Part shown: in pieces, positions 9,792-42,212 of the stretch
Layout of the letters: each line of letters begins with the position of its first letter
How positions within the stretch are numbered: position 1 is the first letter of the stretch
DNA from: Chlorobiota bacterium
GTDB taxonomy: Bacteria; Bacteroidota; Ignavibacteria; Kapaibacteriales; NICIL-2
Direction: 5' to 3'
Assembly (NCBI GenBank): GCA_026415505.1
Contig: JAOAGY010000032.1
Location: 186,001 to 250,000 of the forward strand
DNA length: 64,000 bases
Notes under the pieces: generated by a model
What the model was told of the DNA's origin: nothing
What the model saw: only the letters and a program-made list of their open reading frames with translations
Databases searched by the model: none
Made by a program: the position numbers and the translations under genes

Positions 9792-11369
9792 GTGTGGAGG
9801 TGCTGTCCCGTCGTATTCTGGACGTTCCTCCTTACAGAGGTTGCGGTAGCATACGTTTTGCCAACGACGCTGCTGGCACAGGAAGAGGGAGGATGCCGCT
9901 ATTCCTCTCGTACTGCTGATGCCGTCGTTCGAGCGGTTGCCTTCAGAGTCGCAGGGTACCCTCATCGTGCGATCGGCGAGCTAACGCGTGCAATAGCCGA
10001 AGATTCCACATGCGGACAGCTTTGGGCGCTGTTGGCTCGTTCGTATTGGGAGGCTGGGGATATCGAACAAAGTATCGCTGCTGCACAGAAAGCATTATCC
10101 GCCGATAGCACAATCGTCGAAGCATATCAACTGCTGGCGGAAGCATTGGCTGTTCGTGATCCGATCAGTGCCAGCCGGTATGCCGTGGCTGCATGGCAAA
10201 AAGAGCCAACGCTGTCGAATCAACTACGCGCAGCGTATCTGCTCCGTTATTCGGACACAACACAAGCGATCGGTCTGCTCCGCAGTGTTTTCGATCGAAC
10301 CAATGCCAATGAAATCGCCGAGGACCTCGTTCGGCTCTGTTTGGACCACCACGATACAGCACAAGCCATTTCGTTGCTGCGGCTGTTGCTCTTCGAGTAC
10401 CCCGATGAGCCGGGCATTCCTCGTGCGCTCGGTTTTCTCTACGCTCAGCGTTCACGGTGGGATTCGGCGTGGTATTGTGTACGGTATGCATGTTATCACA
10501 TGGAATCGCTCGACGTTGCGTCGCTATTGTCCGAGTGGTTATCCCTTGTCGGTCATGACTGTCCGACATCTGTTTTGCTCCAGACGGGCTCGTTCATCCG
10601 TGGGCGACATGATTTGCCAGCGGACTATTCGTTGATGATTGCAATGCTCTTGGCGGAGCGGTCGCTTTGGAGCGAAGCGTTCGTACACATCGAATCCGCA
10701 TTTGCCCGGCGCGATTTGACACGCCAACAAGCATTGACAGCTATCGAATTGGTGACGCAATACGACGACGCGCGGCATGCAGACGAGCTGCTTTGCCGCC
10801 GTGATACGATGTTCGGCGATACGTGGGTCCCGGTGGCTCGCTATTACCTGGCGCGATCGTATGGAACGTTGCAATCATCGGCACACATGAACTTGCTGGC
10901 TGATGCGCTGCGCCGTGATAGTACCGACCCCATCGCTTTGTTCTATTCTGCATACTATGCCGATTCGCTCGGCGATCGTAAGAAGGCTATCGAGTTGTAC
11001 GAACGTCTTGTGTTTTTCGATCCCGACAACACTACTGCGGCAAACAATCTTGCGTATTTGCTTGCTGAGCAGGGAGAACGTCTCATCTATGCGCTCGAAC
11101 TCGCTCAACGTGCGCTCGATGCCGATAGTACCAATTCCTCGTTTTTGGATACTTACGGGTGGGTCCTTCACAAACTCGGACGCTACCGAGAGGCGGTGGC
11201 ATATTTCGAGCGTGCTATTGCGCTGAGTCAGAGCCACTCAGCTACACTTTTCGAGCACATGGGCGATAATTACGACAGGCTCGGCGACCATGATCGAGCG
11301 TGCCAGTACTGGCGACGCGCTGTCGAGGTCGATCCTCGCCGCACGTATCTGCTCGATCGGCTCCGCTGA
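9792..11369 (+). CDS. Exported tetratricopeptide-repeat protein
   Basis: A 525-residue protein with an N-terminal signal-like hydrophobic segment followed by repeated TPR units over most of its length. Clear units include LWALLARSYWEAGDIEQSIA near the N-terminus and GRYREAVAYFERAIALS, then RLGDHDRACQYWRRAVEVDP, near the C-terminus. TPR proteins act as scaffolds for protein complexes; this one is likely periplasmic or outer-membrane associated. The start is a GTG four bases after rpmB, so it is probably read on the same transcript. No catalytic motif is visible and the partner is unknown; motA begins 57 bases downstream. Confidence 0.8.
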   Translation: MWRCCPVVFWTFLLTEVAVAYVLPTTLLAQEEGGCRYSSRTADAVVRAVAFRVAGYPHRAIGELTRAIAEDSTCGQLWALLARSYWEAGDIEQSIAAAQKALSADSTIVEAYQLLAEALAVRDPISASRYAVAAWQKEPTLSNQLRAAYLLRYSDTTQAIGLLRSVFDRTNANEIAEDLVRLCLDHHDTAQAISLLRLLLFEYPDEPGIPRALGFLYAQRSRWDSAWYCVRYACYHMESLDVASLLSEWLSLVGHDCPTSVLLQTGSFIRGRHDLPADYSLMIAMLLAERSLWSEAFVHIESAFARRDLTRQQALTAIELVTQYDDARHADELLCRRDTMFGDTWVPVARYYLARSYGTLQSSAHMNLLADALRRDSTDPIALFYSAYYADSLGDRKKAIELYERLVFFDPDNTTAANNLAYLLAEQGERLIYALELAQRALDADSTNSSFLDTYGWVLHKLGRYREAVAYFERAIALSQSHSATLFEHMGDNYDRLGDHDRACQYWRRAVEVDPRRTYLLDRLR

Positions 11370-11373
11370 GTCG

Positions 11374-11390
11374 TCGCTCGAATCGAGCGA
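11374..11390. repeat. 17-base palindrome upstream of motA
   Basis: TCGCTCGA is followed by one base and then TCGAGCGA, giving a perfect dyad with a single central base. It sits five bases after the TPR gene stop and 37 bases before the motA ATG. It could be an operator for a dimeric regulator or a short hairpin. TCGA-rich words are common in this genome, so chance is possible. Confidence 0.3.
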
Positions 11391-11426
11391 TAGCTGAACT
11401 TGTCGGACACATGTCGCAATCGCTCC

Positions 11427-12281
11427 ATGTTCGTTCTCATCGGATTTGTCGTCGTTATTGCCTGCGTCTTGCTCGGCTACACGCTCCACGAGGGGCAAGT
11501 TCTGCTTCTGTGGCAACCGACCGAATTTTTGATCATCGGTGGGGCAGCACTCGGCGGGATGTTGATCGCCAATCCATTGCCGACGACTCTGGCGATCATC
11601 AAAGGTATCGTCGCTTCGATCAAAGGCAGTAGCGTCAACAAAGAAGCATACCTCGATTTGCTCAAACTGCTCTACGAGCTGTTTCAATTGGCTAAGAAAG
11701 ACGGGTTGATCGCGTTGGAGCCGCATGTCGAAAATCCCGATGCATCGCCGATTTTTTCGAAGTACCCGAATATCCTCGCCAATCGCCATGCGGTGGATTT
11801 TCTCTGCGACACCATGAAAGTCGTACTCAACGGCGGCGTTCCAGCTCACGACTTGGAGGAGCTGATGGACATCGATCTCGAAGCGGCACAGCATGAAATG
11901 CTCAAACCCCCGACCGCACTGGCGACAGTTGCAGATTCGTTTCCCGGATTGGGCATCGTTGCTGCAGTGCTGGGTGTTGTAATCACGATGGGGAAAATTG
12001 ACCAGCCGCCCGAAGTCATTGGTCACAGCGTTGCGGCGGCATTGGTCGGGACGTTTCTCGGTGTGCTACTGTCGTATGGTTTTGTCGGTCCACTTGCGCG
12101 AAACCTCGAAAACAATGCCCGCGCAGAGCATCATCTGTTGGTCTGCATCAAAGCAGCGCTGTTGGCATTCGCTCGTGGTGTGCCATCTGTCGTAGCGATC
12201 GAATACGGCCGGCGCGCAATCGAGCCGCACGAGCGTCCATCGTTCCAAGAAGCCGAAGAAGCAGTCAAGTCCGTTCGCTAA
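11427..12281 (+). CDS. motA: Flagellar motor stator protein MotA
   Basis: A 284-residue inner-membrane protein with four predicted membrane helices, the length and plan of the flagellar MotA. With MotB it forms the ion channel that powers rotation. The cytoplasmic loop LAKKDGLIALEPHVENP aligns with the rotor-contact region of the E. coli protein: its Arg90 is Lys here and its Glu98 is conserved. The two functional prolines appear in DSFPGLGIVAAVLGVV and VGPLARNL. I chose the ATG at 11427; an upstream TTG adds nine polar residues. motB follows after 16 bases. No other flagellar gene is in the window. Confidence 0.92.
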   Translation: MFVLIGFVVVIACVLLGYTLHEGQVLLLWQPTEFLIIGGAALGGMLIANPLPTTLAIIKGIVASIKGSSVNKEAYLDLLKLLYELFQLAKKDGLIALEPHVENPDASPIFSKYPNILANRHAVDFLCDTMKVVLNGGVPAHDLEELMDIDLEAAQHEMLKPPTALATVADSFPGLGIVAAVLGVVITMGKIDQPPEVIGHSVAAALVGTFLGVLLSYGFVGPLARNLENNARAEHHLLVCIKAALLAFARGVPSVVAIEYGRRAIEPHERPSFQEAEEAVKSVR

Positions 12282-12297
12282 CACGAGCGATAGCACT

Positions 12298-13203
12298 ATG
12301 TCGGGTGAACAGCCTATCATCGTCAAGAAAAAGAAAGGTGGCGATCATCACGGTCATCATGGCGGCGCGTGGAAGGTCGCCTATGCCGACTTCGTAACTG
12401 CGATGATGGCATTCTTTCTGGTGATGTGGATACTGGGATTGAGTCCCGACAATCGCCAGCGCATCGCCAGCTTCTTTCGTGACCCTGGTCTATTCAGCTT
12501 CTTGACCGGAAAGAAGATCCCAATTGATCCGAATCTATCTGCGGGTAGTTACGGTACGAGCGGGAACAATCCTGGCACCCAAGATAGCTACATCGAGTCC
12601 CAGCGACGGTGGGAGCAGGCGCTTTATGATACGCTCCAACAGCATTTGCGTGAGCGCGCTAAAAGCGACAGTGCTACCGCAGCAGAGAAACTACGCCAAG
12701 CAGCCGAGCAACTCAAGACAAAACTCGCTGAATTGTCGCACGAGGCTCGCTTTCGCGAGTTGCTACAGAATGTCGAATTGCAATTGACACCGGAAGGATT
12801 GCGGATCGAATTGCTCGAAACGAAGGAAAGTGTATTTTTCGAAGTCGGTAGTGCGCGCTTACGACCGGCAGCAATAAAGCTTTTGCAGGAAATTACACCG
12901 ATCCTGCGAAGCTTGCCGAATCCCGTCATCATCGAAGGTCACACCGATAGTCGCGCATATGCGAATGCACATACCTACTCGAACTGGGAGCTGTCAGCCG
13001 ACCGTGCCAACAGCGCAAGAAAGGTGCTCGAGTCCAGTGGACTCCAGGCGGGACGCATAGAGGGTGTGTATGGTTTCGCTGACCGGCGACTCCGCAATCG
13101 CCTCAATCCCTTCGATCCGAGCAATCGTCGTGTCAGCATCGTCGTCGCCAATTTCCGTACCGAAGATTTTCTTCGGCAGTACCAACAATCGGCTCCACAG
13201 TGA
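12298..13203 (+). CDS. motB: Flagellar motor stator protein MotB
   Basis: A 301-residue stator subunit. After a short basic, His-rich tail (KKKKGGDHHGHHGG), the single membrane helix reads AWKVAYADFVTAMMAFFLVM, with Asp31 as the ion-carrying residue. A coiled linker follows. The C-terminal OmpA-like peptidoglycan-binding domain is complete, with IIEGHTDSRAYAN and the final NRRVSIVVANF. It follows motA directly. Its stop overlaps the GTG start of the next gene (GTGA), or lies just before that gene's ATG. Identification is secure; whether the cell has a flagellum cannot be told from this window. Confidence 0.93.
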   Translation: MSGEQPIIVKKKKGGDHHGHHGGAWKVAYADFVTAMMAFFLVMWILGLSPDNRQRIASFFRDPGLFSFLTGKKIPIDPNLSAGSYGTSGNNPGTQDSYIESQRRWEQALYDTLQQHLRERAKSDSATAAEKLRQAAEQLKTKLAELSHEARFRELLQNVELQLTPEGLRIELLETKESVFFEVGSARLRPAAIKLLQEITPILRSLPNPVIIEGHTDSRAYANAHTYSNWELSADRANSARKVLESSGLQAGRIEGVYGFADRRLRNRLNPFDPSNRRVSIVVANFRTEDFLRQYQQSAPQ

Positions 13204-14399
13204 CGATGGAAGCCATTTATGTTCTCGTGGTCTCCGGAGAACAGGATGCGGAGCTTTTCGAGCAAATCATTCAACGTAGCTCCGCCCATGCCGTCGTTAC
13301 CTGTATCCGTAACGAGTCGGAACTGGAGAGCTATTTGACCGCGACAGTGCCCGCGTGTGTCGTAGTGGATTGGCGGTGCGAGTTTGTTCAGCCGGAGCTT
13401 TTCTCGCGGAGCCTCAGCCGACGCTTGCATCGCCCCGATGTTTCTTTAGTGGCAATCGTCACAACGACCGACCAACTCTATCTGGCGTACAAGGCAGGCT
13501 ACGATTTCGTCATCATGCTCGAGTATACGCGTGCGACGTATTACGCGGTGTCGAGCGTCGTTCGATTGGTCGAGCAAGTATGGCGTGCACGGCGTCAGCA
13601 AGAAAATCTCGGTGCAGAGGTGCAGCGGCTGCAAACACTGTGCGAGCACTGGATCAATGTCGTCGAGCGTATCATCGCCGGACGTATTCCCGAAGCACCG
13701 TTAGTGGCGACGTTCGTCCGCCACAGTTCGCTGTGGATTGCCGATCGTTTGTGCACGATCGTGCCCGGCAATGCCATTGATATGGCGCAACTGGACTTGG
13801 CTGCTCGTCTCTATGCGCTCGGGCGCATCCACCTTCTCGACACAGACGTACAGCGAGCCGTTGCGACCGATGGTGTACCCTCTACCTACGGGACAGCAAC
13901 GGTACCTGAGCGTGCTGCTGAACTTCTCGATGTGCTGGTCGAGTATCCCCAGACACGATTGTTCCTGCTGACGATGTACGAGAATTACGACGGGACGGGT
14001 TTCCCGCATCGCCGTCAAGGCTGGCACATTCCGCTCGGTGCGCGGATACTGCGCGTAACTGTGGACTATGCCGAAATGCTCTATCGCGATGCTGTACCTG
14101 CGACCGAAGCGCTCAGCCGACTTCAACAGCTTTCGCACCATCTCTACGATCAACGAGTCGTCGTGCTACTCGACGAGTACGTGACGACATCGGCACCGGA
14201 CTTCGACACCAGCTTGGTTATCCCGCTGCGGGTGGAAAGCCTCTCGTCAGGCATGACGCTCGGACGTGACATCGTCACCGCATCGGGACACAAATTGGCG
14301 GCAGCCGGTACGACACTATCTGCTGTGCACGTCGAACGAATCATCGCACATCATGCGGTCGATCCAGTGCTCGGCTCGGTGTATGTGCTGCGACAATGA
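13200..14399 (+). CDS. Receiver-like/degenerate HD-GYP protein
   Basis: A protein of 397-399 residues resembling a response regulator with an HD-GYP output domain, which normally hydrolyses c-di-GMP. The N-terminal ~120 residues look like a receiver fold. The middle region aligns with HD-GYP, but the catalytic residues are lost. The expected HDxGK reads YALGR near residue 205, and the HHExxDGxGYP motif reads MYENYDGTGFP near 259-269, so both metal-binding histidine sites are gone. The C-terminal ~60 residues (LSSGMTLGRDIVTASG) match the usual tail of RR/HD-GYP proteins. The start is GTG 13200, overlapping motB, or ATG 13206. It may act as a non-catalytic sensor or scaffold coupled to MotAB. 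Confidence 0.72.
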   Translation: MTMEAIYVLVVSGEQDAELFEQIIQRSSAHAVVTCIRNESELESYLTATVPACVVVDWRCEFVQPELFSRSLSRRLHRPDVSLVAIVTTTDQLYLAYKAGYDFVIMLEYTRATYYAVSSVVRLVEQVWRARRQQENLGAEVQRLQTLCEHWINVVERIIAGRIPEAPLVATFVRHSSLWIADRLCTIVPGNAIDMAQLDLAARLYALGRIHLLDTDVQRAVATDGVPSTYGTATVPERAAELLDVLVEYPQTRLFLLTMYENYDGTGFPHRRQGWHIPLGARILRVTVDYAEMLYRDAVPATEALSRLQQLSHHLYDQRVVVLLDEYVTTSAPDFDTSLVIPLRVESLSSGMTLGRDIVTASGHKLAAAGTTLSAVHVERIIAHHAVDPVLGSVYVLRQ

Positions 14400-14411: not shown

Positions 14412-17400
14412 TCAAATGTCGAGTCCGAGCGAAAACAGCCACCACGGCGGTGACCAATTCTGTCCATCGTAGCGCCAGGCTATGTCGATCTTGAACGGAT
14501 ATCCCAACAGCACGGTACGCAGACCAATGCCGGTTCCCATCAAGATTGTTCCGGGCGAATACACGTTGTACGTGTTGCCTGCGGTATCGTAAACTGTCTC
14601 TGGCTGACGAAGCGCGAGTGTTTCTGTGCCGTTCCATGCTGTTCCGACGTCGAGAAACAATGCGCCCATGATGCCACCGACAGAAATCGGTAACGGTCCG
14701 CCTGCGAGTGCGTAGAAAATGGGGAATCGCCATTCGGCGTTGAGCAGGAAATAGCGTGTGCCGCCTTCTTGTGCCAGATCGAATCCTCGTAGCGGCATCT
14801 CCAGTTGGAGAAACGCCAGGTCCTCAGGCTCCTCGAATATTGTCGCATCGACAGCAACTGCCCGGTTGAACCAGTTGTCCAATCCGCCGATGTAAAATCG
14901 CCGCGGCGAGCCGCCGAGGCTGATTCCACCGGCTGCTCGAAATGCGAAACCGTAGAGATAACTCATCACCGGCAGGTAGTAGCGCACATCGGCACGGAAT
15001 ATCGTAAACGGTTTCGTCCATGGTGATGCCTCGGCGCTGAGCCGCATGCGCGTGCCCCGATATGGCGCCAAGAAACCAAAGTCCGTATTATCGAGCACAT
15101 AGGCAAAACTCGGAACCATGTAATTGGCTGTGTAACCGGGGTCTGTTGGAATGTCGAGATTCTCTCGTGCGATACCGACCCAGCGCAGTCCGAGTTCGAC
15201 GCGCTCGAACGTACTCCACGCATACACAGCTTCGACGCCTGCACCGTAGGTTCGAAGCAGATTGTACGTGTACGTCGGTCCGTAGGGAAGCAGCCAGAGC
15301 ACTGAGTATTGCTGTACGGTCACCAAATAATCAACAATGCTCGGCAAGTAGGCGTACTGTGCATAGATGAACGTGTTCTTGAGGTCCTGCCAAAGGTTGA
15401 CGGCAGCATAAATCTGGTGGTCCCCCATAACATCGCTGAAAAGCATCTGAAGGCTACCTTGGAACGTTCCCCAGAGTGTGTTGAATCCACCAGTACTCAT
15501 GACGATGTCGTTAGTGATGGTGACTTTGTATGGATGCGGTGTGAAATCGTAACCCCGGCTGGCGGACTCGTATGCAGCGACTGTCGGATTGCCCGCAATA
15601 GCTGTATCGCTGCTTGTCAGCCGAGGTGGGGCAATTTCGACATCGAACTTCCCGTAGCCGACAAATGCCAATGTCCGACTTCCATCGAGCGAATCCGACG
15701 ACCGACGAATGGTCTCGACCATTTGACTCCGTTGCCGTTGCTGCTGAACGAGTTTGGTCAATGGGAGAGTGTCGAGCTTGAACTCCACCTCGAATGGATT
15801 GCGGATCATGAACAGGTCATAGCCGATCTTGTTCTGAGCTGCGAACAGCAGTTTCGAATCGTCTCGCGCAAGGCTCAACTGCATCAACCCCGACAGCGAA
15901 TTGGTCTTCGGTTTGGATTTCCCCGTTGCCAAATCGAGTTCGTAGAGATTGCCGATGCCGTTCGCTGTCGAGACGTAGAGCAGCCGCTGTCCAGTAGTAC
16001 TCACCGCAATCGAGCTTTTTTGATCGTCTGGTGTGTGCGTGATTCGTTCGATTGTCCTACTTGCGATGTGGATGCGATAAATGTCGCTTTGCCCGAGCCG
16101 GTGTCTCCATGTTTGGAATGTTGTTTTTGTTGCATGCGACGGACTCAGATCGTCCCCGCGATCGGAGATGAAGTACAACGTCACACTGTCGGGACCCCAG
16201 ACGGGATTTTGCTCGGTGAAGAGGTCGTCGGTCAACTGAACGATCGTTTTCGTCTGTAGGTCGAACAGATAGATGTCGGGTTGTTCGGCACGAACAGCCG
16301 TAACGGCGATGAAGCGACCGTCTGGTGACCATGCGGCGCTGGTCATCGTCGGTAAGCCGAAGGTGTACTTTTCGTAGTCTCCGCTTTCGACGTCAACGAT
16401 GTAGAGTGCATCTTGTCCACCTGCTTTGGCAGTAACAGCCAGTTTGGTGCCATCGGGACTCCATGAGATGCCAGGTGTCAGGATGTTGAGTTCTTCGAAA
16501 TCGAGTGTCCGCCCGGAACTAATGAGCCGGCGCATATTTCGTGACGATAGGTCCATGATGTAGATGGCGAAGTCACCGTCACGATCGGAAATCAAAGCAG
16601 CACGTCGCCCGTCGGGGCTAATCGCTGGGGAAGAGTAGTAATAGTTGCCGTCTTTGGTATGGTTAGTCAAGCGTTGAGCAAAGTCGTCGAGTCGGGAAAA
16701 GCGGTCGAGGTCTGGCCAGTACATTTTTCGCATGGCGTTTTGCCATTCCTCGGAGAAATCCTCCAAAGATTTTCCGAATGTTGCCTCGAATGCTGCCGAT
16801 GGTGTTTGCGCATGCCGGAGCTTGTGAATGAGTTCGGCAACTTTTCCTTTCCCGTACTGACGTTCGATGTATGCGTAGAACGCTTGACCGCACCGGTACG
16901 CCAGATAGCCGTCGAGCTGGTCGAGCGGTCGGAGCGCCTCGCTGAGTGCAAGATCGCGCATGAACATATCGGTCTGGACGTCGAGACCGCCTAAGCTTTC
17001 GTACTCAGCTAATCCTTCATTCATCCATATGGGGATGGTCGAACGCGAATAGAGCGCAACCTGTATGCTGCCGGCATAGAACATCTCGTTGAGATAGGCA
17101 TGAACGAGTTCGTGATGAATGACATGACGGAATTTCTCCCAGTCTCCCTCAAAAGGCAACACCATGCGATTCTTGAACAATTCGGTCACACCGCCGATCC
17201 CTTCTGGGAGAAGTTGCCCGATGATGTTCGTCTGTTGGAATTGATTGTGCGAGCCGTAGAGAACAATCGTCATGCGTTTGTTCGGTCGGAAGCCAAAGCT
17301 ACCTACGAGTGAAGCGAGTGCATCTTCGGCTTTGTATGCACAGAATCGTGCGATGTAATCGAGCGAGTCGTGGTAATAAATGTCGAAGTGCGGCGAGGTG

Positions 17401-17513
17401 ATGTACCACCACTGGAATGATTGGTACTGCACCTTGTTCTTGCCGAATTGCGCCCACAAATTCGTCACCGACAGCAGTATCAGTGTGGCGACGACTACGC
17501 TGTGTATTCTCAT
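14412..17513 (-). CDS. Outer-membrane fusion: gluzincin peptidase, TolB-like propeller and Omp85/BamA-like barrel
   Basis: A 1033-residue exported protein with three parts. A signal peptide ends near residue 21 (NLWAQ). Residues ~30-290 form a peptidase-MA-like zinc metallopeptidase, with HELVH at 134-138 and the glutamate-bearing NEGLAEYE at 165-172. Residues ~300-640 hold WD40/PD40-type repeats (AISPDGRRAALISDRDGDF, ISWSPDGTKLAVTA, AAWSPDGRFIAVTA) forming a TolB-like beta-propeller. The last ~340 residues are beta-rich and end in an aromatic residue pattern like a BamA/TamA surface-antigen barrel, with GGLDNWFNRAVA and WRFPIFYALAGG. It probably sits in the outer membrane with peptidase and propeller in the periplasm. 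The ATG at 17513 precedes the signal peptide. Substrate unknown. Confidence 0.85.
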   Translation of the reverse strand: MRIHSVVVATLILLSVTNLWAQFGKNKVQYQSFQWWYITSPHFDIYYHDSLDYIARFCAYKAEDALASLVGSFGFRPNKRMTIVLYGSHNQFQQTNIIGQLLPEGIGGVTELFKNRMVLPFEGDWEKFRHVIHHELVHAYLNEMFYAGSIQVALYSRSTIPIWMNEGLAEYESLGGLDVQTDMFMRDLALSEALRPLDQLDGYLAYRCGQAFYAYIERQYGKGKVAELIHKLRHAQTPSAAFEATFGKSLEDFSEEWQNAMRKMYWPDLDRFSRLDDFAQRLTNHTKDGNYYYSSPAISPDGRRAALISDRDGDFAIYIMDLSSRNMRRLISSGRTLDFEELNILTPGISWSPDGTKLAVTAKAGGQDALYIVDVESGDYEKYTFGLPTMTSAAWSPDGRFIAVTAVRAEQPDIYLFDLQTKTIVQLTDDLFTEQNPVWGPDSVTLYFISDRGDDLSPSHATKTTFQTWRHRLGQSDIYRIHIASRTIERITHTPDDQKSSIAVSTTGQRLLYVSTANGIGNLYELDLATGKSKPKTNSLSGLMQLSLARDDSKLLFAAQNKIGYDLFMIRNPFEVEFKLDTLPLTKLVQQQRQRSQMVETIRRSSDSLDGSRTLAFVGYGKFDVEIAPPRLTSSDTAIAGNPTVAAYESASRGYDFTPHPYKVTITNDIVMSTGGFNTLWGTFQGSLQMLFSDVMGDHQIYAAVNLWQDLKNTFIYAQYAYLPSIVDYLVTVQQYSVLWLLPYGPTYTYNLLRTYGAGVEAVYAWSTFERVELGLRWVGIARENLDIPTDPGYTANYMVPSFAYVLDNTDFGFLAPYRGTRMRLSAEASPWTKPFTIFRADVRYYLPVMSYLYGFAFRAAGGISLGGSPRRFYIGGLDNWFNRAVAVDATIFEEPEDLAFLQLEMPLRGFDLAQEGGTRYFLLNAEWRFPIFYALAGGPLPISVGGIMGALFLDVGTAWNGTETLALRQPETVYDTAGNTYNVYSPGTILMGTGIGLRTVLLGYPFKIDIAWRYDGQNWSPPWWLFSLGLDI

Positions 17514-17659
17514 CGAATCATGCTCCGACAGAAAACCATGTTTCGTTGCGCTGGCGTTTCGTTCTGCTGGCTTAGACGTATCATGCAAGCATTCCGTCAC
17601 ACTGCGATGGGATCGCCGATAAAATGACGACGGCGGCGGAACGGCATATGTTCGGAGAC

Positions 17660-18541
17660 TTACGCAGTGAGCCGGATGATCGTTTCGAGGGTGTCGCGGA
17701 GCGTTTCAGCTTCCCACTCCTGACCGGAGCGGGTATGCGCGTAGATCAGATTGCGCATCGTCCGCTGAACGATCTCGATATTCGAGCGTTGCTGAAGCAT
17801 CGCATCGTTGAACGTAAATCCTGCGTTCTGGATAAAACGCCGGCAATCGTCGTGCGAAATGAATGTGCCCGCATTGAACGGATCAATGAACACATCCAGC
17901 GACGGATGATAGACGACGAAGTGAAGCGGCATACCGATGCCCCACACCTCGATACCGGCTCTGCGGGCGACGAGCATGTACACGCAGCTGAGCGATATCG
18001 GGATGCCTTCTTTCGACTCGAGCACTGTCGCAAGGTACGTATTCCGCGGCAAGTGGTAATTGCTCACAGCACCACGTAATTGCTCGTTTTCGAACAGCAC
18101 TGTATTGAGTGCTACAAGACGAGCAGTCTCCGATAAAGTAGGCAGATGTCGTTCGCGACGATATACCTGACTCGCCAGATCGTCCAGGTACCGCCGCCAG
18201 TAGAAAGTATCCGTTTCGGGATGGCCAAAGCGGGACAATGCCATCAGTGCATCTTCGAGCTGAATGTCTGCCGACGATGCCTGTGCAGCGATGACCATAT
18301 CCACTACCTCCGCTAAGGCAGCGGTTTGTATGGCTCGGATGCATGCATGCGCATTGAGCGCCAGGGCGGAGTTTGGTGGATTGGTCGCCATCGCACGTCG
18401 CAAACTTGGGACGGCAAGATGACCATATGCGATCAGCCGTTGCTGTACGGCAGTTGTCACGTATGGGTCGGTATCGTCGAGCAATGCCAGCAGTGCGTCC
18501 AATTCGCCATAGCTTTCCGATGCTGGACAACGGTGCTTCAT
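17660..18541 (-). CDS. SirB1-family transglutaminase-like protein
   Basis: A 293-residue protein. The N-terminal ~100 residues look HEAT-like, with repeats such as DPYVTTAVQQRLIAYGHLAV. The rest matches the SirB1 / transglutaminase-like core: REGLPISLS-type motif here as EGIPISLSCVYMLVARRAGI, then GMPLHFVVYHP and DVFIDPFNAG. The biochemical role of this family is unclear; it often sits in housekeeping clusters. The ATG at 18541 overlaps the stop of the LOG-family gene as ATGA, so the two are coupled. Confidence 0.82.
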   Translation of the reverse strand: MKHRCPASESYGELDALLALLDDTDPYVTTAVQQRLIAYGHLAVPSLRRAMATNPPNSALALNAHACIRAIQTAALAEVVDMVIAAQASSADIQLEDALMALSRFGHPETDTFYWRRYLDDLASQVYRRERHLPTLSETARLVALNTVLFENEQLRGAVSNYHLPRNTYLATVLESKEGIPISLSCVYMLVARRAGIEVWGIGMPLHFVVYHPSLDVFIDPFNAGTFISHDDCRRFIQNAGFTFNDAMLQQRSNIEIVQRTMRNLIYAHTRSGQEWEAETLRDTLETIIRLTA

Positions 18542-20548: not shown

Positions 20549-22531
20549 ATGGCTCCGATAGCGGTGTACCGGTGGATGGCGGTCGGTATCATCGTTTGGG
20601 CGGTGTGTCTTCCGTCCGGTGCCGCAGCTCAATCGGTTCGTACCTATCGCGTATTCTTCCGCGATAAGGGGATAAGTCCTTTTGTGCCGGGCAGTGCGCT
20701 CTACAGAGCAACGGAAGCAATCATCACTCCGAAAGCCCGACTACGGCGTGCCAAGGTGCTGCCGAGCAATTCCGCAATCATGTTCAGCGATGCACCGATC
20801 TACGAGCCGTATCTGGAGGACATTCGGCGTAGCGGCGCGCGAGTCTTGCTGCGTCTCCGCTGGCGCAATTACGCTGTTGTCGAATGTGACAGCGCCACGG
20901 CGGCGGTATTGTCTGCCAAGCCGTATGTGAGCAGCGTCATACCTACAAGCAGCGTATTGCGACCGCAGTCAGCACAGCGCTCGCTGCTCGACGCAGAAGT
21001 AACCGACCTCTATCGTTACGGACCATCGCAGGATCAACTCCAAATGCTGCACATTCCCGAACTTCACCAGCTCGGCATCACTGGCAGCGATGTCGTCATC
21101 GGTTTTATTGACACCGGATTCCGTTGGAGAGAGCACCGAGCGCTTGCTTCTGCTCGTGTCTTGGCGGAGTACGACTTCATTGGCGGAGACACTGTCACCG
21201 CTAATCAGGAAGGCGATCCTTCGGCACAAGACGGTCACGGAACAGCGGTGATGTCCGTCATTGCCGGTGTCTATCCGGATTCGCTCGTCGGTGCTGCACC
21301 GTGCGCTGGGTTTCTTCTGGCAAAAACAGAAAATATCGCCTCCGAACGACGAATCGAAGAAGATGCTTATGCAGCAGCGGTCGAATGGATGGAAGCGCTG
21401 GGAGTGGATGTTATCAACACCTCGCTCGGTTATTCGGTATTCGATTCAACCGAGGCACAGTACGATCATGCCGACTTGAACGGGCGGACGACGATCGTTT
21501 CGTGTGCAGTCAATGCTGCCACCGAACGTGGCGTCGTTTGTGTCGTGGCAGCGGGGAACGAAGGCGACTCTCCCGAAACAATCTCCTCGCCGGGCGACTC
21601 GGACAGTGCGCTGACCGTTGGGGCATTTGCGAATACTGCGTTCGATATACCTCGATTTACCTCGCGCGGTCCGACAGTGGACGGACGCCTCAAACCGAAT
21701 CTCGCTGCGCTCGGTGTCAACGTTCGTACTGCATCGAACGCCAACCCACTGGCGTTCGGCTATAGCAGCGGTACTTCGTTGGCGACCCCACTTGTTACGG
21801 GAGCAGTTGCGCTCTTGCTTCAAGCGCACCCGGACTTGACGCCGTGGCAAATCCGGGAATTGCTCCAAACTCATGCGTCCCACTCGACCCAACCGAACAC
21901 AGCCATTGGATATGGCGCTCCAAACGCGATGCAAGCTGCCAAGCAGTGGAATATCGTGTGTTCACCGCCGATCGTCATTACTCGCGGCGACAGTGTGCTT
22001 ATAGCTATCGCCGCAGAGAGCAACTATCAAATGAGCAACGTTATGGTTACCATCCGCAGTAGCCGCGACACGATCGAGTACCCATTGAGCAAACAAGGCA
22101 GCTTGTATTCGACAGTGATTCCGATGTACGGCGATTCGATCGAGCTGTACTACTTCCTCCGCGACCAACAGCGCAGCAGACGCTATCCTCCTTTCGGCTC
22201 TATCGCTTTCCGCCGTGGCGATACACTTTTGCCGTGCGGATGGACAACCACCAATCTCCTTACGCACGTACCCATCTCGTATGCGCCAGCTACACTCCCA
22301 AATGTGCAGGGACTTGCTCTACCGCTCGATGGTGCAACGCTGCCGATTCCCGCACGTCCGGTGACTGCGTATTGCACAATCTACGATCTGACACTTCGCG
22401 CTGTTGCAACGGAACTCGTGCCGCCGATGATATCCTCGCTTGCATTGCCGAACCTCGATCGCGGAACGTACCTTGTTCGTCTCGATTACAACGATGGCGA
22501 ATCGTTTTCACAACTTGTTTTGGTGTACTGA
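20549..22531 (+). CDS. Secreted subtilisin-like serine peptidase (S8) with type-IX-like C-terminal tail
   Basis: A 660-residue exported peptidase. A signal peptide ends near residue 28 (GAAAQS), and a ~150-residue N-terminal region may be a propeptide. The catalytic triad is complete: Asp188 in GFIDTGF, His230 in DGHGTAV and Ser410 in SGTSLATP, with the oxyanion Asn in AAGNEG at 337. After the peptidase domain come ~200 beta-rich residues ending LDRGTYLVRLDYNDGESFSQ and LVLVY. That ending resembles the type A sorting domain of the type IX secretion system (GxYxVxL followed by a strand). It is translationally coupled to the SDR gene by a TGATG overlap. Substrates are unknown. Confidence 0.87.
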   Translation: MAPIAVYRWMAVGIIVWAVCLPSGAAAQSVRTYRVFFRDKGISPFVPGSALYRATEAIITPKARLRRAKVLPSNSAIMFSDAPIYEPYLEDIRRSGARVLLRLRWRNYAVVECDSATAAVLSAKPYVSSVIPTSSVLRPQSAQRSLLDAEVTDLYRYGPSQDQLQMLHIPELHQLGITGSDVVIGFIDTGFRWREHRALASARVLAEYDFIGGDTVTANQEGDPSAQDGHGTAVMSVIAGVYPDSLVGAAPCAGFLLAKTENIASERRIEEDAYAAAVEWMEALGVDVINTSLGYSVFDSTEAQYDHADLNGRTTIVSCAVNAATERGVVCVVAAGNEGDSPETISSPGDSDSALTVGAFANTAFDIPRFTSRGPTVDGRLKPNLAALGVNVRTASNANPLAFGYSSGTSLATPLVTGAVALLLQAHPDLTPWQIRELLQTHASHSTQPNTAIGYGAPNAMQAAKQWNIVCSPPIVITRGDSVLIAIAAESNYQMSNVMVTIRSSRDTIEYPLSKQGSLYSTVIPMYGDSIELYYFLRDQQRSRRYPPFGSIAFRRGDTLLPCGWTTTNLLTHVPISYAPATLPNVQGLALPLDGATLPIPARPVTAYCTIYDLTLRAVATELVPPMISSLALPNLDRGTYLVRLDYNDGESFSQLVLVY

Positions 22532-23226: not shown

Positions 23227-25752
23227 TCAGCGGCGCTCGACAGACTGAGGAACGAGCAGTATCGCACGTTTCCAGGTTGGTTGTGGCGCTCGGTGAAGCG
23301 GGATAGGAAGCAAACCGCCGTTTGCCCATAACGTTAGCTGGTCGCTGAAGTTGTTGCTGAAAGGATTGCCCGAAGTGCCGCCAGGCACGATGGCGTACAC
23401 GACAGTATCGCGCAATCGAGTAACCGAACGCATCGAAGCACCGATCACCATTGCAAACGGTCGGTGAATTCGCCACAGTCCGTTGGCAATCGTCGTCGCG
23501 TCTCCTCCGACGCCGGTTACTGTCCGTTCGAGCAACGACCGATACGCTCGCACGGTCGCCAACGGATGATTCAGTGTCAGACGATGAAGGTCACCCCACT
23601 GCCAGTGCGCCGGTGACGTGCCAGCGATACGAACCAGCTTCTCGACAGCTTCCGAGAATGCTTGGCGGATCGCTCGGTTTCGCATCCGCTCGGCTGTCGC
23701 TGAATCCGCATCGAACCACTCGGTAGGGCGCAGAAGCACTTCTGTCAGTCGCCGCATCGGCATCGAGCCGATGAAAGCATAGCGGAGGTATTCATCTTCT
23801 TGCAAGTGCACTCGAAAAACAACGTTCATCAAGCGTTCCAGAAAAACACTGTACAGAGCGGCTGCCCCGGACGCCGATAGCATGTATCCATCCCAGCGAC
23901 TGAGTAAATCGATCGCGTGGCGCTGCAGTGTATCGCTCGTGCTGGTATCGAGCACAGGACGCACGATGCCGAGCAACTGCAGTGCATAGGGCGAAGCAAG
24001 GTCGAGTTGCATCAATTGCGCGTCGCGCACGGTTCGTGAGCTTCCCATCGCGAGCAGTTGTGCAATGCGTTCAGCCCGAGAGCTCGGCTCCCAGAGGTTA
24101 GACACAAAAAAGCCGATCGAATCTCCCGTTTTGTTGTTAGCGCTGAGCACATAGCCTGCAGAAGGGTTGTAAACACTGGGGAAGGGCGAGTGCATCACAC
24201 CGCGCCAGCCGTATGTGGTGTCCCATCCAGGAGAGGGAATGTTCGGATGCCCTTTGCCACGAAGCGGAACGATACCGGCTGGTTGGATACCGATGTTGCC
24301 GTTCAAATCGGCATAGGTAAAGTTGAGCGCTGGCGAACCCCACCACCGTAGTGCAGCACGAAATTGCGACCATGTTCGAGCTCGCATGATGCCGAGCAGC
24401 GAGCGAATTTCGTCGCTCGGTATGTATCCCGTCCACGAGACCGAAACGAGATAGCGTGACGTCAACGGCACCCCGCTTCGCAGTGGCGGAAAACCGATAA
24501 CCGTATCGGGACGCGCAGTGACGTGTGCATCCGACACAATCGGACGATCGCCGTTGCTCCGGACAGCGATGACGATTGGCGACCGGTTCCGAATAGCGAT
24601 GGTATCGTAGCGGATGCGGAGTTTTCTGCGAGTGTTACCGACGACTATCGCATTGCTACGTGTCGTGTCCTGTCTTTCGATGAAGTAGTCGCAATCGTCG
24701 AGCATGACGTTGGTGATGCCCCACGCAATTGCATCGTTTCGCCCGGAGAGTACGGCGGGGAGTCCGGGGATAGTTGCGCCGACGACATTGAACGAAGGGG
24801 AGCTGATGTGAACATGGTACCACCGTGCCGGCAAGCCGAGAACCAAATGTGGGTCGTTCGCCAACAGTGCATCTGGTTGCCCGTCGGTTGTGATGCGAAC
24901 TGCCCAACTATTGCTTCCGCTGCCATTGCCGCTTGCTCCGCTGTGCCGGCGTGCGTCGAGATACGCCGCGCCGATAGATTCGAGCGTTGTGTAGAATCGC
25001 TCGTTCTGCCATTCCGAATGCCAGCCATCGGCACTGCTCATCGAGGATCGTTCCGCTGCGCCGAGTACACGTGGAGAGTTCGGCGCATCGTTGGGGATGA
25101 GTTGCAATGCACGGGCTACACCGTGTCGGTCGGCAATTTCGCCGAGTACGATGTCCGTCCAAAAGCTCATACTCATGTCGAATGCCATTAATCTCCCGAT
25201 CGCCAAACAATCGCTCTCTTGCCATGGTTCTGGTGCAAAGCCGAGCGCATCGAATTCGAACGGACGATTGTAGCGATGCTCAGCGATGAACAAATTGATG
25301 CCGCGAGTGTATGCTTTGAGCACTCGTTTGGATTCTTCCGACAGCGCCGGGTAGATTCTGTTCCGAGCGACCTCGCCGAGCGACAACGTGCGGAAGAATA
25401 CATCGGTGCGCACAAAATCATCGCCGAAGATTTCAGCGAGCCTTCCGAGCGCGATCCGGCGATACAACTCCATTTGCCAGAGCCGATCAGAAGCATGAAG
25501 ATAGCCGAGTGCAACGAACGCATCTTCGTCATTGCGAGCGACAATATGTGCGATGCCGAAATCGTTGCGATAAATTTCAACAGAATCCCCGAGAATACCT
25601 CTTCCAGCGGCGATCGTCTCGTCCGATGCCGGCGAGCGAAGCGCAAGAGACACACCAAAAATCAACAGACCCGCACTGATAACGAGCGCTGTCAGAATAG
25701 CTGCAACAATGTGGCGACTGCGTTGCTGGGGCAAATTGTATTGCATCGGCAT
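23227..25752 (-). CDS. Penicillin acylase family (S45) N-terminal nucleophile hydrolase
   Basis: An 839-841 residue precursor of the penicillin/acyl-homoserine-lactone acylase family. An N-terminal hydrophobic segment (residues ~14-37) suggests export or membrane anchoring. The alpha-chain starts with EIYRNDFGIAHIVA and LGYLHASDRLWQMEL. A spacer leads to GSGSNSWAV, where autocleavage would expose Ser280 as the catalytic N-terminal nucleophile. Downstream motifs NDPHLVLGLPARWY and ITNVMLDDCDYF are typical of the beta-chain. Substrates could be acylated amino compounds, including quorum signals; nothing here decides. Starts at 25752 or 25746 are both ATG. It converges on the SDR gene with 12 bases between the stops. 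Confidence 0.9.
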   Translation of the reverse strand: MPMQYNLPQQRSRHIVAAILTALVISAGLLIFGVSLALRSPASDETIAAGRGILGDSVEIYRNDFGIAHIVARNDEDAFVALGYLHASDRLWQMELYRRIALGRLAEIFGDDFVRTDVFFRTLSLGEVARNRIYPALSEESKRVLKAYTRGINLFIAEHRYNRPFEFDALGFAPEPWQESDCLAIGRLMAFDMSMSFWTDIVLGEIADRHGVARALQLIPNDAPNSPRVLGAAERSSMSSADGWHSEWQNERFYTTLESIGAAYLDARRHSGASGNGSGSNSWAVRITTDGQPDALLANDPHLVLGLPARWYHVHISSPSFNVVGATIPGLPAVLSGRNDAIAWGITNVMLDDCDYFIERQDTTRSNAIVVGNTRRKLRIRYDTIAIRNRSPIVIAVRSNGDRPIVSDAHVTARPDTVIGFPPLRSGVPLTSRYLVSVSWTGYIPSDEIRSLLGIMRARTWSQFRAALRWWGSPALNFTYADLNGNIGIQPAGIVPLRGKGHPNIPSPGWDTTYGWRGVMHSPFPSVYNPSAGYVLSANNKTGDSIGFFVSNLWEPSSRAERIAQLLAMGSSRTVRDAQLMQLDLASPYALQLLGIVRPVLDTSTSDTLQRHAIDLLSRWDGYMLSASGAAALYSVFLERLMNVVFRVHLQEDEYLRYAFIGSMPMRRLTEVLLRPTEWFDADSATAERMRNRAIRQAFSEAVEKLVRIAGTSPAHWQWGDLHRLTLNHPLATVRAYRSLLERTVTGVGGDATTIANGLWRIHRPFAMVIGASMRSVTRLRDTVVYAIVPGGTSGNPFSNNFSDQLTLWANGGLLPIPLHRAPQPTWKRAILLVPQSVERR

Positions 25753-36982: not shown

Positions 36983-38923
36983 ATGCATCTGCGCTGGATT
37001 GTCTCTTTGGTGGGTACTGTTTCTCTCGCTACGATTTGTGCGTGGGCGCAATCGGCACTACCACTGAACGGTGAAGTGCTCGGTGTTAGCATTCGTGGTT
37101 TGTGGACCGCCGCCAATCATGCACCAGCGTTTTCGTCGCTACCAGGCACGATAGACTGCGGCACATACACAAGCGGTGGTGGTACAGGGATCGGTACCGC
37201 TGCAACGATCGAATATCAATTGTCGCAGCACTTCTATCTCGGGCTGGGTGCTGCGTATCTCCCTCGCGGTGGACGATTGACCACACCGAATGATTCCGAA
37301 CCAGCCTTCGACAGCACTACAAGTCGAGTTGTCAACGTAGTGACTGAAAATGCACTCGATGTCAAGCTCGACTACATCGAGATCGCTCCGACACTTTGGT
37401 GGATTCCGATGATCGTCGGGCGCTCGACGTTCCGTCTCGATGCCGGACTGCGTGTGGGCATACCGCTCCGAGCACAAATGCAGCAAACGCGGCGTATCCT
37501 TTCGCCAGAGAACGCAGTGTTTCTCAGCAATCAGCAAAGAGAAATCAACTGGACCGGAGGTTATACGGAGATGAGCAGCGTTGCTCGTCCGACACTGGGA
37601 ATCGGCGTGGGGGTCGAACACTTGTTGCCTATTGGTGAGCGAGTCCACTTGCTGCAGCGCATTGCCTACGACTACAATTTTACCCCACCTGTGCGTGGTG
37701 TAAGCTGGACAGTTTCAGGACTCCGTGCGGAGTTGGGGATTCGCGTTTCAATCGAGCGTTCACGCGACGTAACGACACCGGCACCTCCCCCACCGCCACC
37801 TGTGGACACGAGCAAGCCAACAATTATTCAGCCAGCACCGCTCCCAACTCCGAGCGTTCGACTCACACTCGATCGGTTCGAGGGGCATATCGAAGAGGGC
37901 ACCGAACTCGTTGCGACAACTCCGCTGGTCAATGCTGTGTTTTTCGAGCAGAATTCCGATGAAATTCCTGCTCGCTACGTTCGGCGATCATCCGATAGTA
38001 TCGCGACCGATGATGCCGTGATGGCGCATCGCAATGTGTTGTTGGTGATCGCCAGCGTTCTCCACCGCAATCCGCGCTCGAACGTCGTGCTCGATGGTGC
38101 GACAGCAGGCGACTATGAGCGCGGCGACACAGCATTGGCACGTCGGCGCGCTGAATCGGTAGCACGTGCATTGATCGAACTCGGAGTACCATCCGAACGA
38201 ATTCGAGTACGCTGGTCTCGGTTGCCGCGTGTACCATCGAACATGGATTACCCAGAGGGACGTGCCGAGAACCAACGTGTGGACATCGTACTCACAGGTG
38301 CCCCGATTCTCGAATACGTCTCCAAGCAAACTTTCGCCGACGTCGTCGGTAACCTTGCTGTCCATGTCGGTGGGTACTCGCTCAGTGGTGCTGATATTGA
38401 ACTCCGTGCAACGGGTGCAGATCCACGCACAGTACACGATACCGGCGTGTATGCTGTTCCCGTTCGATTACGTCTGGAGCACCCTACCGGAATGCTCCGA
38501 CTCGAAGCGGAGGCGACGATCGCCGGGACAGCAACGACTGATCGTCAGGCGCTCGACTTATCTCTCGACACCCTCGCACGTCGTCGTGTGGAGCTCTCGG
38601 TGAGCCGTTTCGAAGCGATTCTGCGCTTCGATTACAACAGCAGTCAACTGTCGGATGAAAACCGCGAGCTTCTACGTCAACTCGTCGAGCGTATTCCGCC
38701 GGGGACGACAATCGAGATCGGAGGTAGTGCCGATGTGCTCGGTGATGTCGCACGTAATCGTAAGCTTTCGGAGGAACGTGCACGAGTGACCGAAGACTAC
38801 TTGCGTAGCGTTGCAATGGGCAAACAGCTGCGCATCGTTGCGCAAGGCATCGAGCGTCGCTTTAGCGATGCTGTTCCTGAGGGTCGTTTCCTCAACCGTT
38901 CGATCCGCGTCACGCTTCGGTAA
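36983..38923 (+). CDS. Outer-membrane protein with beta-barrel and two OmpA-like domains
   Basis: A 646-residue exported protein. A signal peptide ends near residue 22 (ICAWAQS). Residues ~30-255 look like an outer-membrane porin-like barrel. A Pro-rich linker (PAPPPPPPVD) leads to a first OmpA-like region (~315-435, with NAVFFEQNSDEIP and RAENQRVDIVL). A beta-rich spacer follows, then a second OmpA-like domain (~550-646, AILRFDYNSSQL to FLNRSIRVTL). In the second, the peptidoglycan-contacting region reads EIGGSADVLGD rather than the usual GHTD. It probably anchors the outer membrane to the cell wall. It lies 69 bases upstream of the exporter operon. Confidence 0.83.
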   Translation: MHLRWIVSLVGTVSLATICAWAQSALPLNGEVLGVSIRGLWTAANHAPAFSSLPGTIDCGTYTSGGGTGIGTAATIEYQLSQHFYLGLGAAYLPRGGRLTTPNDSEPAFDSTTSRVVNVVTENALDVKLDYIEIAPTLWWIPMIVGRSTFRLDAGLRVGIPLRAQMQQTRRILSPENAVFLSNQQREINWTGGYTEMSSVARPTLGIGVGVEHLLPIGERVHLLQRIAYDYNFTPPVRGVSWTVSGLRAELGIRVSIERSRDVTTPAPPPPPPVDTSKPTIIQPAPLPTPSVRLTLDRFEGHIEEGTELVATTPLVNAVFFEQNSDEIPARYVRRSSDSIATDDAVMAHRNVLLVIASVLHRNPRSNVVLDGATAGDYERGDTALARRRAESVARALIELGVPSERIRVRWSRLPRVPSNMDYPEGRAENQRVDIVLTGAPILEYVSKQTFADVVGNLAVHVGGYSLSGADIELRATGADPRTVHDTGVYAVPVRLRLEHPTGMLRLEAEATIAGTATTDRQALDLSLDTLARRRVELSVSRFEAILRFDYNSSQLSDENRELLRQLVERIPPGTTIEIGGSADVLGDVARNRKLSEERARVTEDYLRSVAMGKQLRIVAQGIERRFSDAVPEGRFLNRSIRVTLR

Positions 38924-38938
38924 CGGAAAATACTTCCG

Positions 38939-38965
38939 ATTGGTCGTGCGTCTATCCAGACCAAT
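38939..38965. repeat. Inverted repeat between the OmpA-like gene and the exporter operon
   Basis: ATTGGTC (38939-38945) is complementary to GACCAAT (38959-38965) with a 13-base loop. A smaller CGGAA/TTCCG stem lies just before it. They may attenuate or separate the OmpA-like transcript from the ABC transporter genes. No U-tract follows. Confidence 0.3.
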
Positions 38966-38992
38966 TCAACGACGCAGTACTTCCCTGTCCAG

Positions 38993-40744
38993 ATGGCGCC
39001 AAAATCGTCACCATTTCGGTTGTTGCTCGATTTGATCGAGCTTGAAAGTCGTGATGTTGCCTTGATGACCGGCTACGGTATTTTGGTTAGCATTTTTTCA
39101 TTGTCGGTGCCGCTTGCCGTCGATCTGTTGGTGACAACGATTGCAGCGGGAACGATCACGCTTCCTCTTGTGGTGGTTGCGATCGGGCTGACGGTATTGC
39201 TGACCATTAGCACCATTTTCAGCATCGTTCAGCTCTACATAGCCGAGCTGATCGAACGCAGAATTTTCGTGCGTACTACTTGTCAAGCCGCTTCGACGCT
39301 GTGGGAGACCGATTTGCGCGAGTTTGAGCATACGAACGTTCTGTCGTTGCTCAATCGATTTTTCGATGTCGTCAATGTCCAGAAAGTGTTCACCAAATTC
39401 ACGCTCGATGCAATCACGGCGGTGCTTTCGATTCTTGTCGGCATCGTGTTTATGGCGATTTTCAGTTCGTTGCTCTGGGGATTGACGACGCTACTCGTAT
39501 TACTGACGATTGCACTCATCGTTATCGCCGGTTACGGCGGCGTTCGGACGAATATCGCCGAGTCCGATGCGAAATACGCGTTGGCTGACCGGCTCGACGA
39601 GGTTGGTATCAACATCGTCAGTCACAAAGTTTTTTCGAGTCCACAGTACATCGTTGATCTTTTCGATGCACCGCTGCATCGTTGGCTCAACAATAGGAAA
39701 TCGCACTTCCGCATTATCATTCGCCAACAAATCGTCGCTGCAGTGTTGCGGATTGTGCTGATCGTCGCAATACTGCTCGTCGGAGGGTTTCTCGTCATTG
39801 ATCGCCAAATCTCCCTCGGACAACTTGTCGCCAGCGAGATCATAATTCTGTTGTTCTTGAACAGTATCGAAAACATCATCAAACAAATCCCAGCGTTTTA
39901 TACCCTGTTGACGTCGCTATCGAAGCTGCAACAGTTGACCAGCCTGCGACACGAGTCGAAAGGATACCTCCCATTCGAACTCGATAGTCGAACGGCAGGA
40001 TTGAAAGTCGAGTTTGTCAATGTCAAGTTTTCTTACACCGACGAGGCACCGTTGCTCCGCTCGGTGAACTTGAAAATTGCACCAGGCGAACGAGTCTGCA
40101 TCGTCGGTAGTAGCGGTTCCGGTAAATCCACGGTCGCCCACTTGATTATCGGCACGTTGCAGCCTGAATTCGGTTCGATCTTCGTCAACGATCACGAGCT
40201 CCGGTTGCTCGATCGGACCAGCTACCGTCAGCACATCGGTTACATCAAAACCAGCGATGAAGTATTCAATGGAACGGTGCTCGACAATATTGTCTGGGGT
40301 CGGGACGGCATACCTCATGAAAATATACGCTGGGCATTGGACCTGTGCATGCTTACCCGATGGCTCGAAAGCACCACCGACGGACTTTCGACGCCGGTCG
40401 GTCCGCGTGGAGAGAACCTCTCGACGGGGCAAATTCGCCGCGTGATGATTGCGCGCGCCATCGTACACCGTCCACGACTTCTGATCATTGACGAGGGCTT
40501 CAACGGCATCGAAGACAACGTCAAACTGGATATCGCTGCGAAATTGTACGATAAATCCAATCCATGGACTGTTGTCACGATCTCACACGATCCGGAGATC
40601 GTCGCGTTGTCGGATAAGGTCGCCGTTCTCCATGACGGCTATATCGTCGAATTCGATACCGTGCGTTCGCTCGTCTCACAGCCGGAGAGTCTGCTTGTGC
40701 AGCTGTTCCCCACACTCCCGCAGTTGGTCAAGGAGTCGATATGA
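38993..40744 (+). CDS. ABC transporter, fused membrane and ATPase domains (type I secretion-like)
   Basis: A 583-residue half-transporter. Residues ~20-320 hold about six membrane helices of the exporter type; the ATPase follows, with Walker A GSSGSGKST at 372-380. The signature motif reads LSTGQIRR instead of LSGGQ. Walker B LLIIDEG and the switch region TISHD are intact. No C39 peptidase domain is present, so if this is a type I secretion ATPase the substrate is not leader-processed by it. The stop overlaps the start of the HlyD-like gene as ATGA, and a TolC-like gene follows, forming a complete tripartite exporter. Confidence 0.9.
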   Translation: MAPKSSPFRLLLDLIELESRDVALMTGYGILVSIFSLSVPLAVDLLVTTIAAGTITLPLVVVAIGLTVLLTISTIFSIVQLYIAELIERRIFVRTTCQAASTLWETDLREFEHTNVLSLLNRFFDVVNVQKVFTKFTLDAITAVLSILVGIVFMAIFSSLLWGLTTLLVLLTIALIVIAGYGGVRTNIAESDAKYALADRLDEVGINIVSHKVFSSPQYIVDLFDAPLHRWLNNRKSHFRIIIRQQIVAAVLRIVLIVAILLVGGFLVIDRQISLGQLVASEIIILLFLNSIENIIKQIPAFYTLLTSLSKLQQLTSLRHESKGYLPFELDSRTAGLKVEFVNVKFSYTDEAPLLRSVNLKIAPGERVCIVGSSGSGKSTVAHLIIGTLQPEFGSIFVNDHELRLLDRTSYRQHIGYIKTSDEVFNGTVLDNIVWGRDGIPHENIRWALDLCMLTRWLESTTDGLSTPVGPRGENLSTGQIRRVMIARAIVHRPRLLIIDEGFNGIEDNVKLDIAAKLYDKSNPWTVVTISHDPEIVALSDKVAVLHDGYIVEFDTVRSLVSQPESLLVQLFPTLPQLVKESI

Positions 40745-42210: not shown

Positions 42211-42212
42211 CC

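Follow-up and report, generated by a model that had tools for sequence, protein, structure and literature searches.

What might a single polypeptide do that combines a zinc peptidase, a beta-propeller and an outer-membrane barrel? The question is raised by a gene of a Chlorobiota bacterium, carried on a stretch of 64,000 nucleotides that is referred to here as the window. A sequence-only reading of this DNA had placed the gene at positions 14412-17513 and described a 1033-residue product in which a gluzincin, a TolB-like propeller and an Omp85-like barrel follow one another. The coordinates are right, and the gene lies on the minus strand, with the start ATG at 17513 and the stop at 14414-14412. 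The longest-frame listing extends upstream to an in-frame GTG at 17600, which would give 1062 residues; the ATG at 17513 has a GGAG about 9 nt to its 5′ side and opens a signal-peptide-like sequence, MRIHSVVVATLILLSVTNLWAQ, in which inspection by eye finds no N-terminal lipobox cysteine. A plus-strand reading of the interval was ruled out (15 stops), and a frameshift or fusion artefact was dropped because the same full-length chain is found across the class. The parts of the chain, in order, are as follows.

14412-17513, minus strand: whole gene, 1033 residues, an open reading frame with orthologues in 80 of 80 sampled class genomes
17451-17513, minus strand: signal peptide, residues 1-21, a hydrophobic N-terminus ending in LWAQ, of low pLDDT and assigned by eye
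16701-17450, minus strand: gluzincin peptidase domain, residues 22-271 (Pfam Peptidase_MA_2; its own fold model; Foldseek to M9 and M1)
15801-16661, minus strand: six-bladed TolB-like beta-propeller, residues 285-571 (PD40, TIGR02800, PDB, Foldseek)
15558-15755, minus strand: helix and flexible linker, residues 587-652, with pLDDT below 50 at residues 612-649
14415-15548, minus strand: 16-strand Omp85 barrel with its lead-in, residues 656-1033 (PF01103; model strands at 667-1029; Foldseek)

The three parts and their order are borne out by independent lines of analysis. Pfam scores each of them as a known family (Peptidase_MA_2, PD40 and Omp85 PF01103), as had been asserted, and a full-chain AlphaFold model built from 54 orthologues (mean pLDDT 84.7, pTM 0.81) contains a peptidase domain of alpha/beta type, then a propeller, then a barrel of 16 strands. 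When the whole chain is compared by Foldseek, TolB comes first and BamA barrels next. The predicted C-terminus is thus a 16-strand barrel of Omp85 type, and the HEXXH region adopts, in the predicted fold, a zinc-peptidase domain that matches those of M9 and M1 enzymes.

For the peptidase, the Pfam match covers residues 62-261 (E=1.8e-15, above cut-off) and is the sole Peptidase_MA_2 match in the genome, while AlphaFold delimits an alpha/beta-plus-helical domain at residues 35-271. Folded alone (pLDDT 81.9), this domain matches the catalytic domains of clostridial collagenase (M9) and of aminopeptidase N type enzymes (M1), with a best E of 4e-5, a probability of 1.00, TM scores by query length of approximately 0.4-0.6 and 8-18% identity. 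M9 and M1 are both gluzincins, and the agreement of the predicted fold with the two is modest but consistent; a sequence profile of the domain retrieved nothing convincing among PDB sequences, and the domain is placed by fold comparison only. Its putative active site is formed by two short motifs.

17100-17114, minus strand: HELVH, residues 134-138, with H134, E135 and H138 invariant in 54 of 54 orthologues
17004-17021, minus strand: NEGLAE, residues 165-170, with E166 and E170 invariant in 54 of 54 orthologues

H134 and H138 would serve as zinc ligands and E135 as the general base. E166 is the probable third ligand, since among the ten paralogues and divergent relatives aligned it is always retained, while N165 is replaced by T or V in many of them and E170 varies. 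E166 comes 28 residues after the last histidine of HELVH, the same histidine-to-glutamate spacing as in clostridial M9 collagenase. The gluzincin signature, HExxH plus a downstream glutamate (H134, E135, H138, E166), is complete in every one of the 54 orthologues. A pseudo-peptidase reading was dropped because the catalytic site is invariant.

The 54 aligned orthologues span 38-77% identity, and yet all share, besides these residues, G167 of the second motif and Y206, R207, W881, R909, G910, F953 and D955 elsewhere in the chain, a degree of motif conservation that lies far beyond chance. Comparisons with the four nearest relatives give a pN (non-synonymous differences per site; synonymous sites are saturated or nearly so) of 0.064-0.097 for the peptidase, 0.109-0.180 for the barrel and 0.173-0.223 for the propeller, making the peptidase the slowest-evolving domain. 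That the peptidase is the most constrained part argues for protease activity, and the conserved zinc-peptidase domain is apparently active, as judged from sequence.

The second part of the chain comes closest to TolB. PD40 is matched in four stretches (E=4.2e-19), the NCBIfam TolB family TIGR02800 gives 1.4e-37 and 129.6 bits against a cut-off of 343.15 and is thus below cut-off, the PDB sequence matches of the propeller are to TolB, and Foldseek ranks 1-18 are all TolB (E down to 3e-13). AlphaFold shows about 24 strands grouped by four at residues 285-571, which are read as a six-bladed propeller. Such closeness in both sequence and fold would suit a link to the Tol-Pal system, in which the propeller would dock Pal or TolA and the barrel would anchor the protein in the outer membrane during division. 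We regard such a link as very improbable, given that the peptidase takes the place of the N-terminal domain of TolB and that none of the conserved neighbours examined, a minority of which were identified, was recognised as tol or pal. Between propeller and barrel, residues 612-649 are predicted to be disordered, and the linker is the least conserved part of the mature chain.

The C-terminal part matches Omp85 PF01103 at residues 754-1018 (E=4.7e-11, above cut-off) and aligns with BamA barrels in Foldseek (TM by target length up to 0.67). Strand boundaries, assigned by us from the AlphaFold model, are 667-674, 687-693, 699-706, 715-722, 727-744, 747-765, 770-785 and 794-808 for strands 1-8, and 817-830, 836-850, 854-866, 920-931, 949-960, 991-1002, 1005-1015 and 1024-1029 for strands 9-16. 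Omp85 proteins carry RGF in loop L6 and FxDxG in strand 13, and both signatures can be located here.

14757-14915, minus strand: loop L6, residues 867-919, with an insertion of about 30 residues between GG (876-877) and RGF
14781-14789, minus strand: Omp85 signature RGF, residues 909-911, with R909 and G910 invariant in 54 of 54 orthologues
14643-14657, minus strand: Omp85 signature FLDVG, residues 953-957, in strand 13, with F953 and D955 invariant in 54 of 54 orthologues

A motif search finds LRGF at residues 908-911; in the model, RGF falls into the loop that joins strands 11 and 12, and FLDVG forms part of strand 13. In 53 of the 54 orthologues position 911 holds an aromatic residue (F, W or Y), with H in the remaining one, and G957 is kept in 53. 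The features of the Omp85 superfamily, namely a 16-strand C-terminal barrel, RG[FYW] in L6 and FxDxG in strand 13, are therefore all present, and their conservation is as would be expected for a working Omp85. As for subfamilies, no BamA, TamA or TamL profile is matched above cut-off (NCBIfam, Pfam), Pfam detects no patatin domain of the kind that marks PlpD, and no POTRA domain is found, either by Pfam at E<=1 or in the secondary structure of the AlphaFold model.

The order of a passenger followed by a C-terminal barrel invites the reading that the barrel exports the peptidase and propeller of its own chain to the cell surface, and secreted M9 collagenases are indeed among the nearest solved folds of the peptidase. 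This reading seems improbable to a high degree, considering that localisation data overturned the same model for PlpD (PMC11116518). In folded form, propeller and peptidase are also large, the disordered linker of about 40 residues is the only obvious segment for threading, and both domains are highly conserved, unlike many surface proteins. By analogy with PlpD, an Omp85 barrel alone is no proof of either insertion or export (PMC11116518).

The architecture proves to be widespread. The sequence-only reading had implied that it was rare; this was mistaken, as the chain occurs throughout the class and POTRA-less propeller-Omp85 fusions were catalogued in 2014 (PMC4104836). All 80 sampled class genomes give a match, and in 78 the copy is complete or almost so, with a few class copies broken by contig ends. 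In the phylum sample, 275 of 296 genomes match at E<=0.001, and the weak matches from two large families, f24 and f28, are probably TolB-type propellers. Among the best 80 of 560 relatives, the closest named contigs belong to Ca. Kapaibacterium, Kapabacteria and Chlorobiota metagenome-assembled genomes. Plasmid and phage collections return mostly TolB-type propellers and propellers of S9/S41 peptidases. One plasmid, pSR116 of Salinibacter ruber, encodes a 634-residue peptidase-propeller relative without a barrel (L132:5944-7845), annotated as 'basic secretory protein-like protein' and situated amid redox and metal genes; the front half can thus exist without the barrel. Another locus (L126:8350-10422) shows a masked stretch of N beside a divergent relative of the 1033-residue protein.

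These observations bear on the strongest rival to the reading preferred below. The barrel could be an anchor or scaffold only, with no insertion activity, from which a periplasmic peptidase acts on lipoproteins or on secreted or cell-wall-linked proteins while the propeller positions the substrate. We consider this rather unlikely, yet worth serious attention: PlpD offers a precedent (PMC11116518), the peptidase is the most conserved domain, POTRA domains are absent, and the Salinibacter plasmid relative lacks a barrel altogether. However, the conservation of RG[FYW] in L6 and of FxDxG in strand 13 meets no obvious need of an inert anchor, and the TamB and BamB-like neighbours of relatives, described next, point to assembly.

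Within the window, the genes around the locus offer little guidance. Upstream lie YgfZ-, LOG- and transglutaminase-like genes, a local arrangement confined to the near genus, of which the nearest is the following.

17663-18541, minus strand: Transglut_core2 (SirB1-like) gene, common to the nearest relatives only

On the other side, a TPR protein, MotA, MotB and an HD-domain response regulator stand in a row (9792-14396, plus strand), convergent with the gene and with 12 bases between the stops; this set also borders the orthologue in loci L032, L046, L051, L079 and L098. Both groups were dropped as clues to function, because they are local or recur in few loci. Further along the window are a subtilase (20549-22528, plus strand; Peptidase_S8, 9e-45), whose last residues resemble by eye a type IX secretion sorting tail with no sorting-tail match in Pfam or NCBIfam; a penicillin amidase family protein (23230-25752, minus strand; full-length match, 3.7e-180); and, at 36983-43649 on the plus strand, a protein matched by the OmpA domain in two places and, after it, a type-I-secretion-like set of ABC transporter, HlyD-type adaptor and TolC-like OEP. 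An Rfam scan of the 64-kb window at gathering cut-offs returned nothing, and promoter and terminator scans gave matches no more numerous than in shuffled sequence.

Elsewhere in the genome, the standard machinery is in place: a BamA (L119; TIGR03303, 6.3e-113), a POTRA-bearing TamL/BamA-like Omp85 (L118; best NCBIfam match TamL), a PlpD-like patatin-Omp85 (L120) and a separate TamB (L121), encoded on contig 42. With BamA and a second POTRA-bearing Omp85 already present, the protein is not needed as a general assembler, and in view of this whole complement it is an addition to the standard machinery and not a substitute.

Relatives in other lineages are more informative. In 17 Ignavibacteria-type loci a TamB-like gene, RNase R and the orthologue follow one another, sharing a strand and separated by short gaps in the loci read. 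Five families contribute the 15 class genomes, out of 78, in which tamB is located 2.1-2.6 kb upstream of the orthologue and on its strand; outside those 15 it is at least 266 kb away or on another contig, and the link is absent from the window's own genome and order. TamB identity was established by Pfam in L091 and assigned by BLAST clustering only in L078. The recurrence of this cluster in five families would fit a barrel that, in part of the class, partners TamB in lipid transfer or in assembling a subset of outer-membrane proteins, with proteolysis as a side activity. We judge such a partnership improbable, given the lack of clustering in the window's order, the presence in the same genome of a POTRA-bearing Omp85 with TamL as its best NCBIfam match, and the absence of POTRA domains through which a TamA-type contact with TamB would be made.

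A second link concerns a sister paralogue of about 945 residues, found in most genomes outside the window's order and not found in the window's genome. Its L6 has the short form GGSWDLRGY, about 30 residues shorter than that of the 1033-residue protein. In 33 of 50 class genomes, a PQQ-repeat protein is encoded within 5 kb after the paralogue; in the examples tested its best NCBIfam match is BamB (7.1e-68 in the best example, below cut-off), and a lipobox is visible by eye. The stop of the paralogue overlaps the start of the BamB-like gene in the examples read, and a PEGA-domain protein follows the BamB-like gene in the loci read. No BamB-like match occurs in the window's genome. Loci with this arrangement include the following, together with L125 and L127.

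L122:6208-10978: paralogue, BamB-like gene and PEGA-domain gene
L123:5213-9941: paralogue, BamB-like gene and PEGA-domain gene
L131:2217-6974: paralogue, BamB-like gene and PEGA-domain gene

Together with the conserved protease site, the TamB and BamB-like neighbours of relatives suggest that the protein helps to build the outer membrane or to police it. The reading we prefer, tentatively and at somewhat less than an even chance, is that of a zinc protease, anchored in the membrane and facing the periplasm, that is coupled to an Omp85 barrel and serves the assembly or quality control of the outer membrane. The N-termini of Omp85 proteins are periplasmic, so peptidase and propeller would be expected on the periplasmic side. 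Such a location has been described for N-terminal extensions of Omp85 proteins, including the enzyme domain of PlpD (PMC11116518). In a single chain, the barrel would be seated in the outer membrane, with the TolB-like propeller and the zinc-peptidase domain suspended from it on the periplasmic side, where they would stand in for POTRA domains. The chain would operate at an outer-membrane assembly site, where the propeller would bind either an envelope protein as it arrives or a partner, the protease would clip or degrade stalled or immature substrates, and the barrel would help to insert substrates. The scheme would resemble BepA working on BAM, within one polypeptide. The periplasmic orientation, proteolytic activity, substrates and role of the barrel as an active assembler are what we infer from the combined evidence.

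In favour of this assembly and quality-control reading stand the intact gluzincin site in all 54 orthologues and the predicted gluzincin fold, and a conserved site at an Omp85 barrel may indicate triage of outer-membrane proteins. Against it, the tamB link is limited to the 15 of 78 genomes and has RNase R in between, it is the paralogue that has the BamB-like link, and the barrel is without POTRA domains, with which BamA and TamA bind their substrates. The substrate processing or recruitment before barrel-mediated insertion or secretion that had been proposed from the sequence is compatible with the evidence. A bolder version appears doubtful: a one-polypeptide machine, universal in Kapaibacteria/Ignavibacteria, whose Omp85 barrel assembles a set of outer-membrane proteins with its own triage protease and propeller, partnered by TamB in some lineages and, for the paralogue, by the BamB-like lipoprotein.

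With respect to known systems, no earlier description was found of the intact gluzincin domain, the L6 insertion or the TamB and BamB-like gene links. The propeller-barrel architecture without POTRA is already known in outline: Heinz and Lithgow described it in 2014 (PMC4104836) as a subfamily, still uncharacterised, under the name WD40-Omp85, a term occurring in only one paper of the literature searched. According to the main text of that paper, members of the subfamily join a TolB-like propeller to an Omp85 barrel, without POTRA domains, and are likened to a BamA-BamB fusion; judging from this architecture, the WD40-Omp85 set would be the set of the present protein. Unlike that main-text description, an intact gluzincin domain precedes the propeller here; the word 'peptidase' is absent from the main text, and 'metalloprotease' (Metallo) is filed there in a separate PF00149 group (PMC4104836). 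PlpD likewise has an enzyme domain N-terminal to an Omp85 barrel, and its authors report that this domain stays periplasmic, suggest that the barrel is reused as a scaffold, and note that these Omp85 subfamilies are still not well characterised (PMC11116518); it differs in carrying a patatin lipase and one POTRA domain instead of a zinc peptidase and propeller. TolB shares the fold and sequence signature of the propeller, whereas it is a separate soluble protein with another N-terminal domain, and the M9 and M1 catalytic domains, the nearest solved folds of the peptidase, occur in other domain contexts. For a zinc peptidase that works at BAM and acts on substrates there, BepA provides the precedent (PMC8423444); it would be an analogue as a periplasmic HExxH peptidase at an Omp85 assembly site, although it is an M48 peptidase and a separate protein with neither barrel nor propeller. 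The combination of a WD40-Omp85 architecture with a conserved zinc peptidase and gene links thus leads to a specific proposal on outer-membrane quality control, concerning a class-wide family in a large branch of Bacteroidota.
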